Shown: piece by piece, positions 4,027 through 31,956 of the stretch
Layout: each line of letters begins with the position of its first letter
How positions within the stretch are numbered: position 1 is the stretch's first letter
Source of the DNA: Chloroflexota bacterium
GTDB lineage: Bacteria; Chloroflexota; Dehalococcoidia; Lucifugimonadales; Australimonadaceae
Length of the DNA: 35,968 nucleotides
Assembly (NCBI GenBank): GCA_022561455.1
Contig: JADFRC010000005.1
Coordinates: forward strand, 1-35,968
Direction: 5' to 3'
The notes under the pieces: generated by a model
Database searches by the model: none
Seen by the model: only the letters and a program-made list of their open reading frames with translations
What the model was told of the DNA's origin: nothing
Position numbers and translations under genes: made by a program

Positions 4027-5563
<1,537 letters not shown>

Positions 5564-5613
5564 CGGGTCCTCCCGAGGGACGAGGGATGCGTGGGAAGCG
5601 CGTGAAGAGCGGG

Positions 5614-6096
5614 CTAGCGGACGGAGACGACCTTGATCTTCTGGTTCCCGGCGGGCACGGTGAACTCGACGACATCTCCGGCCTTCTTGCCCAGCAGTGC
5701 GCTCCCAAGGGGCGACTCGTTGGAGATGCGCCCCTCATCGGGCGCGGCCTCCGCACTCCCGACGATAGTGTAGGTGTCCGATCGCTTGCTGGCGACGGCT
5801 TGCACCTTCACGATCGAGCCGACCTCGACGACCGCGGACCTGGCGCCCCGCCGGCGCCGGTGGTCCGGGATGATGACCGCATCGTGGATCATCGCCTCCA
5901 GCTCCTGGATGCGGCCCTCCACGAAGGCCTGCTCGTTCTTCGCCTCTCCGTACTCGGCATTGTCGAGCTCGCCGACCTCTTTCGCCTCCTGGATGCGGGC
6001 CGCCGCCTCATGGCGGCGGACGCTGCGAAGCTGCTCGAGCTCCCCCTCGAGCTCGCGCAGGCCATCCGTCGTGAGATACGTTCTTCCAGACGTCAT
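5614..6096 (-). CDS. greA: Transcription elongation factor GreA
   Basis: Gre factors enter the RNA polymerase secondary channel and stimulate cleavage of backtracked RNA. The protein is 160 aa, the normal size, with an N-terminal antiparallel coiled coil and a C-terminal FKBP-like domain ending in ESPLGSALLGKKAGDVVEFTVPAG. The coiled-coil tip reads KEVGELDNAEYGEAKNEQ (residues 39-56). The usual tip is GDLxENAEY, where the D and the E position the catalytic magnesium. Here the loop is one residue shorter and offers E43 and D45 instead. ATG at 6096 has GAGGA upstream. It is the first gene of the greA-lysS-serS-M16 run, and its promoter is visible at 6190-6218. Confidence 0.93.
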   Translation of the reverse strand: MTSGRTYLTTDGLRELEGELEQLRSVRRHEAAARIQEAKEVGELDNAEYGEAKNEQAFVEGRIQELEAMIHDAVIIPDHRRRRGARSAVVEVGSIVKVQAVASKRSDTYTIVGSAEAAPDEGRISNESPLGSALLGKKAGDVVEFTVPAGNQKIKVVSVR

Positions 6097-6189
6097 CGTT
6101 CGTTCCTCGAAGCAGGCCGATATCAGGGCAAAGGAAAGACCGAGTCCCCCTTGGAGCCCCCGTATCGGGCGAGTCCCCGGCCGCGCGGG

Positions 6190-6218: not shown

Positions 6219-6232
6219 CAGCCCGCGCCGGT

Positions 6233-6251
6233 CGGTAGTGTCCTAGTTTGA
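6233..6251 (+). repeat. Left terminal inverted repeat of cassette A
   Basis: The sequence CGGTAGTGTCCTAGTTTGA is the exact reverse complement of 8071-8089. The outermost C/G pair may belong to the target duplication, which would make the true terminal repeat 18 bases beginning GGTAGTG. Confidence 0.85.
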
Positions 6252-6258
6252 CCGACGG

Positions 6259-6462
6259 CTAAGGCGTGCGCGATGCCATGAAGAGAGCGAACCCTGACAC
6301 GCTAGCAACAAATGCCACGGACGCCCACATGCCAACCGATGTCCAGGCGTTGCTCATCGCCATTAATCCGACCACAGATCCGACAGGGATCACTCCCCAA
6401 GCGATGACGAGGTGCCAGAACTTCGGTTTCTCATAGCGGCGGCGGCGTCTTGGTAACCTCAC
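6259..6462 (-). CDS. Small two-helix membrane protein, unknown function
   Basis: This is a 67-aa protein I do not recognise. After a basic N-terminus (residues 2-10 almost all Arg/Lys) come two hydrophobic segments, about residues 17-37 and 43-63, so it is probably a small inner-membrane protein with its N-terminus inside. The GTG start at 6462 follows the restored stop of the small gene upstream by 4 bases. It is the last gene of the leftward cargo of cassette A and ends only 8 bases from the terminal repeat. The hydrophobic pattern and close packing support a real gene; a chance reading frame is possible. Confidence 0.5.
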   Translation of the reverse strand: MRLPRRRRRYEKPKFWHLVIAWGVIPVGSVVGLMAMSNAWTSVGMWASVAFVASVSGFALFMASRTP

Positions 6463-6466
6463 GCGA

Positions 6467-6758
6467 TCATCCCCGCTGTTCCTGGACGGTAGCGGCGCGC
6501 ACCGCTGCCTCTGGTGAGTCTACTTGTCCTTGGTGCAGCACGGCCACGAACCGGCGCTTCTCGCCAGCCGTAGCGTGCGACCAGGCGTAGCAGCGGGTCG
6601 CGGTGGGGTGGACCTATCAGATCGAACACGTGGACCTCGCCATCCCAGACCGTCAGGCCCTCAAACGCCTCGTGGACGGGAACGGCAGCGACCCAAACTG
6701 AGTCGCAGCCATGTAGGTCCTGTATCGCTTGGCGCAGCGAGGTTAAATCCTCAGGCAT
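6467..6758 (-). pseudogene. Small conserved hypothetical protein, broken by a one-base frameshift
   Basis: Read from ATG at 6758 the frame gives a plausible soluble protein up to VWDGEVHVFDLIG (about residue 49), then degenerates. Removing one G of the pair at 6610-6611 restores a continuous 96-residue protein that goes on HPTATRCYAWSHATAGEKRR and ends ATVQEQRG with TGA at 6467. From memory this matches a family of about 90-residue proteins with HPxAxRxYAWSH followed by a 'VAVLH...SPxAAVRAA' end; its function is unknown to me. The start overlaps the P63C stop by 8 bases. The break may be a real recent mutation or a sequencing/assembly error. Confidence 0.7.
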
Positions 6759-7746
6759 CCTCTTCCTCGTCGTCTTCGAACCCCAGGTCTAGTCGCCCTT
6801 GGGGGTCTCTTGGCCCAAAGGCGCGCTTGAAGAGGCGGTCGAACGTCGTCCAACTATTCGAGACGCGCATCAGTGTCATCACTGAAGCCAGTTGTCGACC
6901 TAGATGCTCGTTGCCGATATCAGTTAGGTGCTGGTGGAGGGTGTGCTTGCGATGCCCCGTCTCGGTCAGGGGCTCCAACCGCTTCAACTCATCGAGAACG
7001 CTCGGTGCAAGCGGCTCGTAGACAAGTTGGTTCGTAATCTTCCCGACAATCTTGGGCCGCTTCACCGATGGGGGGTTGTACGTCCAGCCACGAAGCCTGA
7101 AAAGCTCTTCGTAGAACTCATCGGGGAACCGTTTGGTCCAGGGCATCAGGGCAGGGGCAATGTAGGCCTCAAGGATGCGGTGGAGCTCGTCCCGGTCCCG
7201 GTCTCGAACATATCCTGTCGCGTCATCCACCAAAGCACTGAGGGCGACCCCGACCAACGCGTCCCGAAGGACTTCTGCTTGGAACGCCATGCGCTCCTGC
7301 TGTGTCCCAAGGATGCCAGCGTGTCCGGCATCTATCCAGACCTTGCAAATCTCACCGAGCAGCTCCGCGCGGATGCCGTAGCTCCTTGCGCCGCGGAGTC
7401 CCCTGTAAACGATAGGATCGGATAGCTGAACAAGGAGAGTCGATGGAATGAATGGGATCAGATTCTTCGCAGAAAGGAACAAGGGCAGGGTTGGGCCGGT
7501 TGCGCCTTGACGCAACCTATACCACGACGGGCTGCCTCGCCCGGTCTTGCCAAATACCCTCGCGACGCCCCGCTCTGACAACACCCTGAGAGGGAACTGC
7601 CTGCCTTGGGGTTCAAGGACGGCACAGGGGATGACCAAGTCTCCGATGACCAAATCTCCCGTATGCGTCGCCCTAGGTATCTGCTGGACATCTTCGGTTG
7701 CAGACTGAGAAGCCATATCATCTCCACTATGCACCGGTTCATCCAT
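6751..7746 (-). CDS. P63C-domain protein (cargo of cassette A)
   Basis: The 331-aa protein opens with THTGDLVIGDLVIPCAVLE and an early VLSERGVARVFG segment, and its second half carries the P63C-type stretch from KRFPDEFYEELFRLRGW to ITNQLVYEPLAPSVLDELK. P63C proteins are widespread in phages and mobile elements; their biochemical role is not established. The C-terminus is acidic (FEDDEEEDA). An alternative start is ATG at 7716, which has a better GGAG upstream and removes ten residues. The gene leads the leftward cargo operon and overlaps the next gene by 8 bases. Family assignment is from recalled motif resemblance. Confidence 0.75.
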   Translation of the reverse strand: MDEPVHSGDDMASQSATEDVQQIPRATHTGDLVIGDLVIPCAVLEPQGRQFPLRVLSERGVARVFGKTGRGSPSWYRLRQGATGPTLPLFLSAKNLIPFIPSTLLVQLSDPIVYRGLRGARSYGIRAELLGEICKVWIDAGHAGILGTQQERMAFQAEVLRDALVGVALSALVDDATGYVRDRDRDELHRILEAYIAPALMPWTKRFPDEFYEELFRLRGWTYNPPSVKRPKIVGKITNQLVYEPLAPSVLDELKRLEPLTETGHRKHTLHQHLTDIGNEHLGRQLASVMTLMRVSNSWTTFDRLFKRAFGPRDPQGRLDLGFEDDEEEDA

Positions 7747-7890
7747 GGGTGGTATAGCCGAACATAGGCAAGTTATCTACAGTCCGGCCTCTTTCCTGAA
7801 GGAGAATGGTATACGGCATCAGTCAGTGGTGTCAATCACTCTGCCACCGTCATCCTTTAGAAAGCCGGTGATAGTGCCGTGTTTCTCTTG
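7747..7890. other. Cassette A spacer between P63C gene and transposase fragment
   Basis: About 140 bases of comparatively AT-rich sequence hold the presumed promoter of the leftward cargo genes and the junction where cargo replaced the body of the transposase. I see no convincing gene in it. Confidence 0.4.
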
Positions 7891-8079
7891 ACGGCAAGGG
7901 TCCGGCTCACGAACGGGTTCAGCAAGAAGGTGGAGACCTTGCGTGCAGCGGTCGCGTTGCACTTCTTCGCCCACAACCTCGTGAGGCGTCACCACACGCT
8001 GCACATGACCCCTGCGATGGCCGCTGGCATCACTCCGCGCCGGTGGACGGTCGCCGATCTCGTCTGGCTCTCAAACTAG
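7879..8079 (+). pseudogene. Transposase, C-terminal fragment (IS1-like)
   Basis: The last 66 codons of a transposase remain. RLTNGFSKKVE, ALHFFAHNLVRRHHTLHMTPAMAAG and the end RWTVADLVWLSN match the C-terminus of the DDE transposases whose ends read 'RLTNAFSKKxEN...MHYNFVRIHxTLRVTPAMAAG'. The catalytic N-terminal two thirds are absent, and homology fades upstream of about base 7890, so the fragment cannot be active. The stop codon lies within the right terminal repeat. I place it in the IS1-like group with moderate certainty. Confidence 0.8.
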
Positions 8080-8089
8080 GACACTACCG
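8071..8089 (-). repeat. Right terminal inverted repeat of cassette A
   Basis: Exact reverse complement of 6233-6251. It contains the stop codon of the transposase fragment (8077-8079). Confidence 0.85.
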
Positions 8090-8192
8090 CGCTGGTCCCA
8101 AGAACCGCCCAACGTCTCCGCCGACCGGCTCCAGCATCGGGGGCGCGAGGAGCAGGAACGCCATAACCGCCCGAAGAGGTCTCGTAGTTCGA

Positions 8193-8222
8193 TTGAACCG
8201 AAATTGAAACAACGCATAGAAT
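8193..8222 (+). promoter_or_regulatory. Probable promoter of rsmD-coaD
   Basis: TTGAAC (8193-8198) and TAGAAT (8217-8222) are 18 bases apart in an AT-rich patch between cassette A and rsmD. The -10 box is identical to those of the greA and rplU promoters. The predicted leader is about 50 bases. Confidence 0.5.
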
Positions 8223-8280
8223 ATCGACCAGTTACGACCGCCGCCCCCTCAGGGGCACGACAGGGACGTAGGGGCGCGAT

Positions 8281-8838
8281 GTGCGCGTGACCGGTGGAGC
8301 GGCCAGGGGTGTGCGTTTGCGACCGCCCCGGGCCCCGGGCGTGCGGCCCACCACCGACCGCGTGCGGACCGCGCTCTTCAACGTCCTGGCGGCCCGCGGC
8401 ATCGAGGGGGCGGTCGTCGCCGACCTCTACGCCGGCACCGGGTCGCTTGGGATCGAGGCCCTGAGCAGAGGCGCGGCGCAGGCAGACTTCGTCGAGGCCG
8501 ATCGGAGGCAGATGGACGTGATCCGGGCGAACGTGCGGGCGGCCAAGGTGGCCGAGCGTGCCAAGCTGGTCCACGCGGACGTCGAGCGGGCCCTGGACGG
8601 GCTCGGCCGGCGCTACGACTTGGTGCTCATGGACCCGCCGTACACGCAGCCCTTCCCGGCCGCCGTCGTCGCGCGGATCGCCGAGCTGGGCCTGCTGGCG
8701 GACGACGCCGTCGTCGTGGCCGGGCACGCCAGCCGCGTCGAGGCGCCCCTGGTCTGCGGGCAGCTCGTCCGCGACCAGGACCGCCGCTACGGCGACAGCT
8801 CGCTCGCGTTCTACAGCGTGCATGGGAGCGGCCGATGA
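8281..8838 (+). CDS. rsmD: 16S rRNA (guanine-N2)-methyltransferase RsmD
   Basis: RsmD methylates G966 (E. coli numbering) of 16S rRNA in the 30S subunit, using S-adenosylmethionine. The 185-aa protein has the typical opening MRVTGGxARG and PTTDRVRTALFNVL, the SAM-binding loop DLYAGTGSLGIEALSRG (residues 48-64) and the catalytic DPPY at 118-121. The GTG start at 8281 is preceded by AGGGG at a good distance; a nearby ATG at 8279 is out of frame. It shares a 4-base stop/start overlap with coaD, the usual partner of rsmD. Confidence 0.95.
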   Translation: MRVTGGAARGVRLRPPRAPGVRPTTDRVRTALFNVLAARGIEGAVVADLYAGTGSLGIEALSRGAAQADFVEADRRQMDVIRANVRAAKVAERAKLVHADVERALDGLGRRYDLVLMDPPYTQPFPAAVVARIAELGLLADDAVVVAGHASRVEAPLVCGQLVRDQDRRYGDSSLAFYSVHGSGR

Positions 8839-9314
8839 CCGTGGCGATCTACCCAGGGCGCTTCGACCCGGTGACCGCCGGGCACTTGGACATCGTCCAG
8901 CGCGCGGCCAAGCTATTCGAGCGCGTGGTGGTGGCGGTCTTCGAGGCGCCGGAGCACGACACGCTCTTCAGCGCCGAAGAGCGGATCGCACTCTTCCGCG
9001 ACGCCACGAAGACGGTCGAGGGCGTGGAGGTCAAGGGGTTCGGCGGGCTGGTGGTCGACTGTGCGCGGGCGGAGGGCGCCGGGGCGATCGTGCGCGGCAT
9101 CCGGATGACCGCCGATTTCGAGTACGAGTTCGAGATGGCCCTGATGAACAAGAAGCTCGCGCCGGACATCGACGTGGTCTGCCTGATCACCGACATCCAG
9201 TACCAGTTCGTCCGCGCCACCCTGCTCAAGGAGGTTGCCCGCCTCGGCGGCGACATCACCGGGCTCGCGCCCACCAACGTGATAGCGGCTCTCAAGGAGC
9301 GACTCGGCCGGTAG
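8835..9314 (+). CDS. coaD: Phosphopantetheine adenylyltransferase
   Basis: CoaD makes dephospho-CoA from 4'-phosphopantetheine and ATP, the fourth step of CoA synthesis. The 159-aa length is normal. The nucleotidyltransferase motif TAGH is at residues 14-17, after IYPGRFDPV. RGIRMTADFEYEFEMALMN matches the conserved RGLRAVADFEYE region. The ATP-phosphate loop, ISSS in E. coli, is replaced by QFVRATLLKEVA, a notable local change. It overlaps rsmD by 4 bases. Confidence 0.95.
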   Translation: MTVAIYPGRFDPVTAGHLDIVQRAAKLFERVVVAVFEAPEHDTLFSAEERIALFRDATKTVEGVEVKGFGGLVVDCARAEGAGAIVRGIRMTADFEYEFEMALMNKKLAPDIDVVCLITDIQYQFVRATLLKEVARLGGDITGLAPTNVIAALKERLGR

Positions 9315-29204: not shown

Positions 29205-29281
29205 GGCGGGCTCCGTGCTCAGGCCATCGCGGCCCGGCGCCGGGGCAGTGTAGCATCACGCTGGCGCGCTCCAGCTACCCG

Positions 29282-29340
29282 CCCACCATCGCCGTGACCG
29301 TCGAGCCGATGTCGGCGGGCGCCGGTTATGATGTGGCAGC
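29282..29340 (-). repeat. Displaced copy of the sucD 3' end (att-like direct repeat, left)
   Basis: 59 bases match 31085-31142, the last codons of sucD, with two substitutions and one extra T. The copy is in the same orientation as sucD and even has its own TAG stop at 29275-29277. The extra T breaks the sucD frame, so the copy is decaying. It marks the left edge of cassette B. Confidence 0.85.
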
Positions 29341-29415
29341 TAGGTCTTCCGCGCGTGTGGCGTTCGTGCTAGCGTGCGCTTGCGGAGATGTCCCGCAAGG
29401 AAGCAGACCATCGCT

Positions 29416-30021
29416 GTGCCAGTGAAACCGGCCGCACTAACCATCGGCCACTCGAATCACTCACTCGGTGACTTCCTCACCCTCCTGAAGAAGCACCGGG
29501 CTGACCTCCTCGTGGATGTGCGGTCGCATCCTCGTTCTAAGTACGCTAACCAATTCGATTCTCCTGGCCTTGGTGAGGCTCTGGAACAAGCGGGAATCCG
29601 CTACCTCTACCTGGGCGACGAGCTAGGAGGGCGACCGCGGGATTCCCACTATTACGATTCAGCTGGCTACGTCCTGTATGGCAAGCTGGCGCAATCGGAC
29701 GATTTCTTCCGCGGGCTTGTTCGACTCCGAGGCGAGCTGCCACGCCACCGCGTTGCAATCATGTGCAGCGAGGAAGATCCAACTAACTGTCACCGCCGAC
29801 TGCTCGTTGGGCGTGTGCTGGCCGAACGAGGCCATTCGGTTAACCACATTCGTGGGGATGGACGACTGCAAAGTGAGCAGGAAATCGCTCAATCGGAGCG
29901 CGGAGGTCAGTCAGCACAGATGAGTCTGCTTCAACCGGATGAGGAGGAGTCGTGGCGGTCCGCACGGCCTATTCGATTGGGTTCACCAAGCACAGCGCCC
30001 GGGACTTTTTCGAGTCCCTAA
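29416..30021 (+). CDS. DUF488 family protein, first copy
   Basis: This 201-aa DUF488 protein has the typical opening ALTIGHSNHSLGDFLTLLKKH, then LLVDVRSHPRSKY, YLYLGDELGGRP and CSEEDPTNCHRRLLVGRVL. The CSExxxxxCHR pair of cysteines and the DVRSxPxS loop are the likely active-site residues. The biochemical activity of DUF488 is not established; comparative work has linked it to nucleotide-modification contexts. I chose GTG at 29416 (VPVKPAALTIGH); an upstream GTG at 29374 adds 14 basic residues. The gene overlaps the second DUF488 gene by 70 bases, unusually far. Confidence 0.88.
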   Translation: MPVKPAALTIGHSNHSLGDFLTLLKKHRADLLVDVRSHPRSKYANQFDSPGLGEALEQAGIRYLYLGDELGGRPRDSHYYDSAGYVLYGKLAQSDDFFRGLVRLRGELPRHRVAIMCSEEDPTNCHRRLLVGRVLAERGHSVNHIRGDGRLQSEQEIAQSERGGQSAQMSLLQPDEEESWRSARPIRLGSPSTAPGTFSSP

Positions 30022-30401
30022 ACCGCGCAGGCATCGAGCGCCTCGTCGACGTGAGGCTCAACAACGTGTCCCAGCTCGCGGGGTTCGCGAAGCGCGATGA
30101 CCTCGCGTACTTCCTCGAATTAATCTGCGGTGTGGAGTACATGCACGAACCTCTCTTGGCTCCAACCGCCGAGTTGTTGGACGCATACCGCAAGCGTCGC
30201 ATTACGTGGGAAACGTACGAGCGTAGGTTCAGTGACCTGATTCGCGAGCGGAGCATCGGAGACATGTTCGCGCCGGAGTTCTTCGATCGCCGCACCGTCC
30301 TGCTCTGTAGCGAGCACGCTCCTGACCAGTGCCATCGGCGCCTTGTGCTTGAATACTTGCAGCGTGTATGGGAGGGAGACCTGGTGATCAAGCACCTCTA
30401 A
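29952..30401 (+). CDS. DUF488 family protein, second copy
   Basis: This 149-aa protein shares the DUF488 pattern with its neighbour but is diverged and shorter: AYSIGFTKHSARDFFESL, RLVDVRLNNVSQLAGFAKRD, then CSEHAPDQCHRRLVLEYL. The second variant, with LNNVSQLAGF in place of SxPxS, is a recognisable DUF488 subgroup. GTG at 29952 has an excellent GAGGAGGAG just upstream. Two different DUF488 paralogues side by side suggest a heteromeric enzyme or two successive steps. It ends 11 bases before the next gene. Confidence 0.88.
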   Translation: MAVRTAYSIGFTKHSARDFFESLNRAGIERLVDVRLNNVSQLAGFAKRDDLAYFLELICGVEYMHEPLLAPTAELLDAYRKRRITWETYERRFSDLIRERSIGDMFAPEFFDRRTVLLCSEHAPDQCHRRLVLEYLQRVWEGDLVIKHL

Positions 30402-30412
30402 GGGGAGGGGGC

Positions 30413-31078
30413 GTGGAAGTCGAGCTACTGTGCCTGGCAAACTCTCAGAAGTTAGGTGGGCGCTGCCTGGCGGGTTTGCGGACCGACGGCCAAGGCTGGA
30501 TTCGCCCCGTCACTAACACCCCAAGCGGCACGCTGTCGATTCGGCAGGCTAGTATCGCTGGTGCCGAGATTGCACTACTCGATGTCGTCCGCGCTGATCT
30601 GGCTAGCGCACGACCCGAGCCGCATCAGCCAGAGAATCACATCCTTGCTAGCACACCGCTGATCTTTGTTGAAAATCTCGCTCCGACAGAGGCCTTGCCT
30701 CTACTGTCGGCAGCCATTGAGCGAGGCCCGGACCTTCTGAGGGGCGCAACCGACCGCATCGCCAGGCAGAGTTTTGACGCAAGACCCACGCAACACTCAC
30801 TCTCGCTAATCGAGCCAGCGATATTGCGCTGGGTCGTGACCACCTCGTTGAGAGGAAATCCACAGGTCAGGGGCGTCTTTAGTCTTTCAGGAACCACTTA
30901 CGACTTGGTAGTGACCGATCTAGTCTGGAAAGCCCGGTTCGGTGGCCGTGACGTGGGGACTTACCCACCCGATGCAACAGGTACTAATCGCTCCAACCGG
31001 GTGCTGCTGGTCATCAGCTTGTCCGAACCCCTAAACGGCATGTGCTACAAGTTGATTGCCGGTGTAATCGTCATCTGA
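30413..31078 (+). CDS. Dual OB-type domain protein (partner of DUF488 pair)
   Basis: The 221-aa protein opens VEVELLCLANSQKLGGRCLAGL, with WIRPVTNTPSGTLS, LLDVVRADLASARPEPHQPEN and, near the end, VVTDLVWKARF. This fits the 'dual OB-containing domain' proteins that I recall beside DUF488 genes; the match is from memory. These are thought to bind nucleic acid or nucleotides. GTG at 30413 has AGGGGAGGGGG upstream and sits 11 bases after the second DUF488 gene. Its stop is 2 bases from the convergent end of sucD, at the edge of the island. Confidence 0.7.
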   Translation: MEVELLCLANSQKLGGRCLAGLRTDGQGWIRPVTNTPSGTLSIRQASIAGAEIALLDVVRADLASARPEPHQPENHILASTPLIFVENLAPTEALPLLSAAIERGPDLLRGATDRIARQSFDARPTQHSLSLIEPAILRWVVTTSLRGNPQVRGVFSLSGTTYDLVVTDLVWKARFGGRDVGTYPPDATGTNRSNRVLLVISLSEPLNGMCYKLIAGVIVI

Positions 31079-31080
31079 CC

Positions 31081-31956
31081 CTACCCCACCATCGCCGCGA
31101 CCGTCGAGCCGATGTCGGCGGGCGTCGGTATGATGTGGCAGCCGGCGTCTTGGAGCGCCGCGACCTTCGCCGAGGCGAGCGCGGCCTCGCCGGTGATGAC
31201 GGCGCCCGCGTGCCCCATGCGGCGCCCCGGCGGCGCCGTCTGGCCGACGATGAGGCTGGCCACCGGCTTGCGGACGTGCTCCTTGATGTAGGCGGCCGCC
31301 TGCTGCTCCTTCGTCCCGCCGATCTCGCCGATGAGCACGATGGCCTCGGTTCCTGGGTCGTCGTTGAACAGCTCCAGCACGTCCACGAACGTCGTGCCGG
31401 AGACCGGGTCGCCGCCGATGCCCACGCACGTCGACTGCCCGATGCCCGCCTTCGTGAGCTGGTCCACGGCCTCGTACGTCAGCGTGCCCGAGCGCGAGAC
31501 GACCCCGACCTTCCCCGGCGTGTGTATGTCGCCCGGCATGATGCCGATCTTGGCCTTGGAGCCGGGGCTGATGAGGCCGGGGCAGTTGGGGCCGATGAGC
31601 CGCGTCCCCTTGCCCTCCAGGTAGCGCATGACGAACGTCGAGTCGCGCACCGGCACGCCCTCGGTGATGCAGACCACCAGCGGCACGCCGGCGTCGGCCG
31701 ACTCCATGATCGCGTCGGCCGCGAACGGCGGCGGCACGAAGATGAGCGCGACGTTCGCGCCCGTCTCGCCGACGGCAGCTCTTACGCTGTTGAAGACAGG
31801 CACGGTGCCGCCGAAGAGCTCGCCGCCCTTGCCCGGCGTCACGCCGGCGACGACGTTCGTGCCATAGGCGGCACAGCGCTCGGCGTGAAAGCTGCCCTCG
31901 CGCCCGGTGATGCCTTGGATCAGCAGCCGCGTGTTGCCGTCGACCAGGATGCTCAT
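31081..31956 (-). CDS. sucD: Succinyl-CoA synthetase alpha subunit
   Basis: SucD binds CoA and carries the phosphohistidine of succinyl-CoA synthetase (TCA cycle, substrate-level ATP or GTP formation). At 291 aa it has the normal size. [10 protein letters not shown] (residues 15-24) is the CoA-binding loop and the phosphorylated His249 lies in [11 protein letters not shown]. The last 19 codons fall in the direct repeat that bounds cassette B, so the present C-terminus may be supplied by the incoming element. It is separated from sucC by 127 bases holding a palindromic repeat. Confidence 0.97.
31085..31142 (-). repeat. sucD 3' end, att-like direct repeat (right)
   Basis: 58 bases within sucD repeated at 29282-29340; this is the right-hand edge of cassette B. 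Confidence 0.85.

Follow-up and report, generated by a model that had tools for sequence, protein, structure and literature searches.

Transporter insertion sequences (transporter IS, tIS), introduced as a concept by Siguier, Gagnevin and Chandler (2009, through PMC3129680; PMC7986276 is also relevant), are among the known systems closest to the locus described here, with which they share an IS-type transposase, short terminal inverted repeats (TIRs), a target-site duplication (TSD) and passengers predicted to be unrelated to transposition. In the literature searched this concept was found and the group of elements treated below was undescribed; subscription papers and ISfinder lay outside the search, and an earlier description is possible.

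In the window (the whole stretch of 35,968 nucleotides that was analyzed), an element of 1,855 bp (6234-8088) is located between greA and rsmD (Table 1), its limits being set by comparison with the ends of its family (GGTAGTG...). We regard it, with a probability of roughly 0.88 that leaves the function of P63C out of account, as a compact IS1-like transporter IS that was inserted after the split from its congeners and is now non-autonomous through internal deletion. The first-pass annotation of this DNA had described perfect 19-base inverted repeats, a 9-base flanking repeat with one mismatch and a transposase C-terminus ending inside the right repeat, and all three were recovered. The 19-mer CGGTAGTGTCCTAGTTTGA occurs at 6233-6251 (+) and 8071-8089 (-) with 0 mismatches; across the window these are the only sites within 3 mismatches, and 100 shuffled sequences contained no match at this threshold. 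Since the pair is exact and absent from the shuffles, it is not a chance product. The TIRs within the family limits are identical at 18 of 18 positions, and the TSD comprises 9 bp. The G+C content of the element is 59% vs. 70%, and the GC3 value of its P63C gene is 0.67 vs. 0.95 for lysS, which is consistent with a foreign origin.

A second stretch of low G+C content (60% vs. 70%), possibly foreign, was observed at 29251-31105 of the window.

Three ORFs are encoded on the minus strand of the element, as had been noted before; their description as three passenger genes holds for two of them, since the 99-aa ORF is a frameshifted orf102 pseudogene. The C-terminal half of its match continues in another frame, the intact gene encodes about 100 aa, and faulty sequencing or assembly could account for the shift. 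The 67-aa protein shares 34% over 64 aa (E = 3.7e-6) with its relative and shows a weak match to MauE, which is under the cut-off. The P63C-domain protein scores above the Pfam cut-off (E = 5e-32, 110.8 bits vs. 26.1) and lacks the N-terminal KGG/ARW segment with which most of its relatives start. The transposase fragment begins after the E of the DDE motif, so that none of the three DDE residues is left; the candidate catalytic D, D and E are invariant in all 27 full transposases compared.

Table 1. Features of the element between greA and rsmD, with positions in the window.
Feature	Position	Strand	Basis or remark
Target-site duplication, left copy GCGCCGGTC	6225-6233		Sequence comparison; family members have 8-9 bp duplications
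Left terminal inverted repeat GGTAGTGTCCTAGTTTGA	6234-6251	+	Same ends in many genomes
67-aa small hydrophobic protein, GTG start	6259-6462	-	Relative in the 417-bp derivative L135
orf102 homologue (99-aa ORF), frameshifted after about codon 51	6459-6758	-	Intact copies in L077, L029, L032, L078 and L079
P63C-domain protein, 331 aa, open	6751-7746	-	PF10546; phrog_2384
Transposase C-terminal fragment	7879-8079	+	Matches residues 214-273 of the L077 transposase, 65% identity
Right terminal inverted repeat	8071-8088	-	Overlaps the end of the transposase fragment
Target-site duplication, right copy GCGCTGGTC, one mismatch	8089-8097		Sequence comparison

In both congeners compared, G002 (93% identical) and G001 (84-86%), greA and rsmD are joined without the element; in G002 the regions 5550-6128 and 8140-8850 of the window align with 84 bp between them. 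These empty junctions, which the first-pass annotation had suggested looking for, show that the insertion is specific to the window lineage among the genomes compared. The earlier reading of a whole element that ends as IS1-like elements do, is flanked by a target duplication and carries passengers is supported. None of the relatives searched has P63C between greA and rsmD without the repeats. The search for the ends, proposed for the same genome and for relatives, was successful in other genomes only: in the own genome, which is about 91% complete, no second copy was found within 3 mismatches, and the sole transposase similarity of this kind is the window fragment itself. Outside it, a 17-base form of the end matched 37 stretches, and in many of these the ends form pairs flanked by 8-bp duplications.

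Full-length copies, for which the first-pass annotation had likewise proposed to look, are represented by two genomes of the same order, both with near-identical ends and perfect 8-bp duplications. In G038, a 2.77-kb element in one piece (L077) has ends nearly identical to those of the window (GGTAGTGTCCTAATTTGA) and a perfect 8-bp TSD (ggcttggg). It encodes a full transposase, from which P63C and orf102 point away, and the gene order of the window element is that of L077 with most of the transposase missing. One contig of G027 ends with P63C (49-51% identical) and orf102, and another ends with the transposase (L079, L080); both loci share the TSD agcaatcg, and we infer that they form one element split by the assembly. 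Further relatives (L153, L154, L156, L180, L192) have perfect 8-bp and sometimes perfect 9-bp duplications.

Shortened copies were found as well. L133 has a length of 772 bp, with a TSD matching at 8 of 8 positions, and comprises a transposase C-terminus and a piece of orf102, while L135 (417 bp) has an imperfect duplication. MITE-like copies of about 205 bp with family ends (L142:1032-1238, L143:776-978) are present in G568, which contains 27 family ends within one mismatch. In L013 both ends are present with no duplication, and it may be a rearranged copy.

Family ends were also observed around a 3.1-kb stretch (L141:848-3980, G548:C58) with the TSD tccggccc, in which no transposase was found, and, together with duplications, on IMG/VR viral contigs (L179:8659-10798, L180:1907-3576, L192:915-3942, L219:1731-4821); the cargo of L179 includes a methyltransferase-like gene. 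Two near-identical units of 626 bp with the ends GGTAGTGTCTTAGTTTGA occur in two genomes of one genus (L082:2787-3412, L084:4458-5083).

The window element belongs to a wide group whose members normally carry cargo. Among 301 genomes sampled from the phylum, 19 contain a transposase of the group, full or partial, at 25 places in total, and 20 of these loci were taken for end-finding. Ends and duplications could be resolved in 16 of them, with lengths of 2.05-4.60 kb; no convincing ends were found in the other four (L148, L157, L160, L165). The search range would also have caught plain IS of about 1 kb, and for other IS1-like transposases of the phylum it returned a plain element of 1.31 kb (two copies compared, of ten matches in G181), so the method does not force large sizes. 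A small "KGG...ARW" protein is encoded in 15 of the 16 resolved elements, a count that includes the source elements of its profile. This profile was built from 12 elements, which match it by construction (motif GGxxGGxARAxx(L/M)(S/T)...A..AA..RW), and it matched 11 further elements and also four of four plasmid loci that had no part in building it. Three of the latter, from Mesorhizobium, Acidiphilium and Hoeflea, have ends and duplications (2.6-4.2 kb), and the fourth (L224) showed no convincing ends. In the Mesorhizobium record the KGG/ARW protein is annotated as "histone H1". The profile had no match in the window element or in the orf102-bearing loci L078, L019, L029 and L032.

The cargo was called by PADLOC, Pfam or direct BLASTP to the scanned protein, with matches indicating likeness and not function. 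Judged by such matches, putative defence-like cargo (restriction-modification or other) is carried by 10 of the 16 resolved phylum elements, as a raw count. Restriction-modification or methylase genes are found in L147, L150, L155, L158, L159, L161, L162 and L163, with the calls for L159 and L161 coming from BLASTP only; L162 carries a BglII-type endonuclease and an MT-A70 methylase. The ten are completed by PDC-S13 (L149) and PDC-M34A/DUF5343 (L156); a PIN/DUF433 pair (L164) lies outside this count. Outside the phylum, RmrT and RmrA (L004), PD-Lambda-2_B (L039), SoFic (L026), PDC-S33 (L019) and a type II restriction enzyme with a methyltransferase and an XRE regulator (L141) were identified. 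Different cargo on close transposases, as in L078 vs. L080 of one genome and in L156 vs. L158, points to cargo exchange.

P63C is present in 10 of 247 genomes of the order, the window's own counted, and no fewer than five group members carry it. It adjoins a related transposase in L126 (perfect 18-bp ends, TSD cattgttt) and L127 (TSD gacaggta), both of which have matching ends. In the transposase tree these two stand apart from L077 and L080, and three changes of the P63C label are needed, so P63C was gained or lost repeatedly. It was also found in one IS1595-like element with long perfect inverted repeats (L131:3001-6257, G543:C36), which holds methyltransferase-like and HNH-like genes as well; no such element was seen at the other P63C loci of the order (L128-L130, L132).

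The P63C protein matches the phage family phrog_2384, of unknown function, along almost its full length (E = 4e-89), and it has no PADLOC match. Its structure model (mean pLDDT 72) retrieved from BFVD the p63 protein of phage Mx8, one unnamed entry and weak BRO-like matches, with no fold match in the PDB. In SPN9CC a homologue directly follows cI, with sieB nearby; another adjoins int in Burkholderia phage DC1, and a third lies close to int and the repressor in Gordonia phage Petra. Positions beside cI or int are typical of prophage-expressed genes. Given the frequent defence-like cargo of the group and the location of P63C beside cI or int in temperate phages, we tentatively propose, with somewhat less than even confidence, that P63C counters or regulates phages or mobile elements that compete with its carrier. 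The missing PADLOC and PDB matches, and the P63C loci at which no such element was seen, speak against a firm assignment to defence. That it instead regulates the transposon itself, e.g., transposase expression, and is no independent passenger, appears rather unlikely. Its frequent placement beside the transposase in divergent orientation (L077, L126, window) and the phage-regulator-like character of P63C proteins (weak anti-repressor match, E = 3e-4) would fit such a function, but most group members lack P63C and have other genes in its place, even with close transposases (L078 vs. L080), and the gene also occurs in the IS1595-like element and in phages. By homology P63C is no transposition gene, and related elements such as L078 lack it; as a passenger it may be dispensable for transposition.

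Turning to the window copy, its derivation by deletion from an autonomous member is favored because it keeps the transposase tail. The ancestor would have had both ends, a transposase with P63C and orf102 directed away from it and probably the small hydrophobic ORF as well, and would have inserted between greA and rsmD after the split from the congeners, making the 9-bp duplication. A later deletion would have removed the DDE part (the first ~210 codons) of the transposase and probably also the N-terminal KGG segment of P63C; one deletion across the divergent start region would account for both losses. In addition, orf102 would have been frameshifted and one copy of the duplication mutated, this order of events being inferred.

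The first-pass annotation had proposed a cassette moving in trans, which is possible in principle, as the ends are perfect and a related transposase could still act on them. A cassette that is still active in this way has only a small chance of being the right description: L141, L179 and L180 combine perfect TSDs with no transposase found, as such cassettes would, but neither a helper transposase nor a second copy of the ends was found in the own genome, and the TSD mismatch and the frameshift indicate age. For the first of these reasons the window copy is probably immobile now. It is most improbable that P63C and its neighbors entered and replaced a resident IS transposase at this locus, close to the reading of the annotation. 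The transposase is truncated and P63C adjoins it, as this would require, but in other genera a full transposase occurs in this gene order, with perfect TSDs around each element, L077 and L079/L080 already contradict the idea by holding transposase and passengers together, and the window element has no internal copy of the ends.

An internally deleted copy at one locus is of modest interest, and the wider group is of more. Defence genes are known to move between bacteria, and the vehicles of single compact defence systems in non-model phyla are, to our knowledge, poorly known. The findings suggest that the group is a little-noticed vehicle for spreading defence-like genes. At close to an even chance, these compact IS1-like transposons (GGTAGTG ends, 8-9 bp duplications, a ~280-aa transposase, the KGG/ARW protein) may be specialized in one defence-like module at a time, with modules swapped between close transposases and P63C being one of them, a candidate undescribed anti-phage or anti-element gene. 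As the group is recognizable by its ends, transposase and KGG gene, it offers a direct route to defence candidates by their position between two ends, and it raises the testable question of what use the KGG protein is to the element.

Among known systems, the IS1 family is similar in its 8-9 bp TSD, and IS1 models give the closest matches to the group transposase (NF033558, E = 1e-16; PF03400, over the cut-off); for L077 the scores are 61.3 bits vs. the NCBIfam cut-off of 100 and 26 vs. 24.1 in Pfam PF03400. Unlike in IS1, the match starts from about model position 40, the transposase is a single ORF of ~280 aa, and the element has 2-4.6 kb with cargo. With mobile insertion cassettes (MIC) and MITEs the window copy shares the combination of ends and passenger with no working transposase, but it keeps a transposase tail. 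IS1595-type elements with passengers resemble it in that P63C also rides in one such element, L131 of G543, whose transposase is different and whose ends are longer. The complete DDE transposase of an autonomous transporter IS is missing in the window and full in L077, L126 and L127. In contrast to transporter IS, this group has cargo in every resolved phylum member, its KGG/ARW gene is nearly constant, and its cargo is often defence-like.
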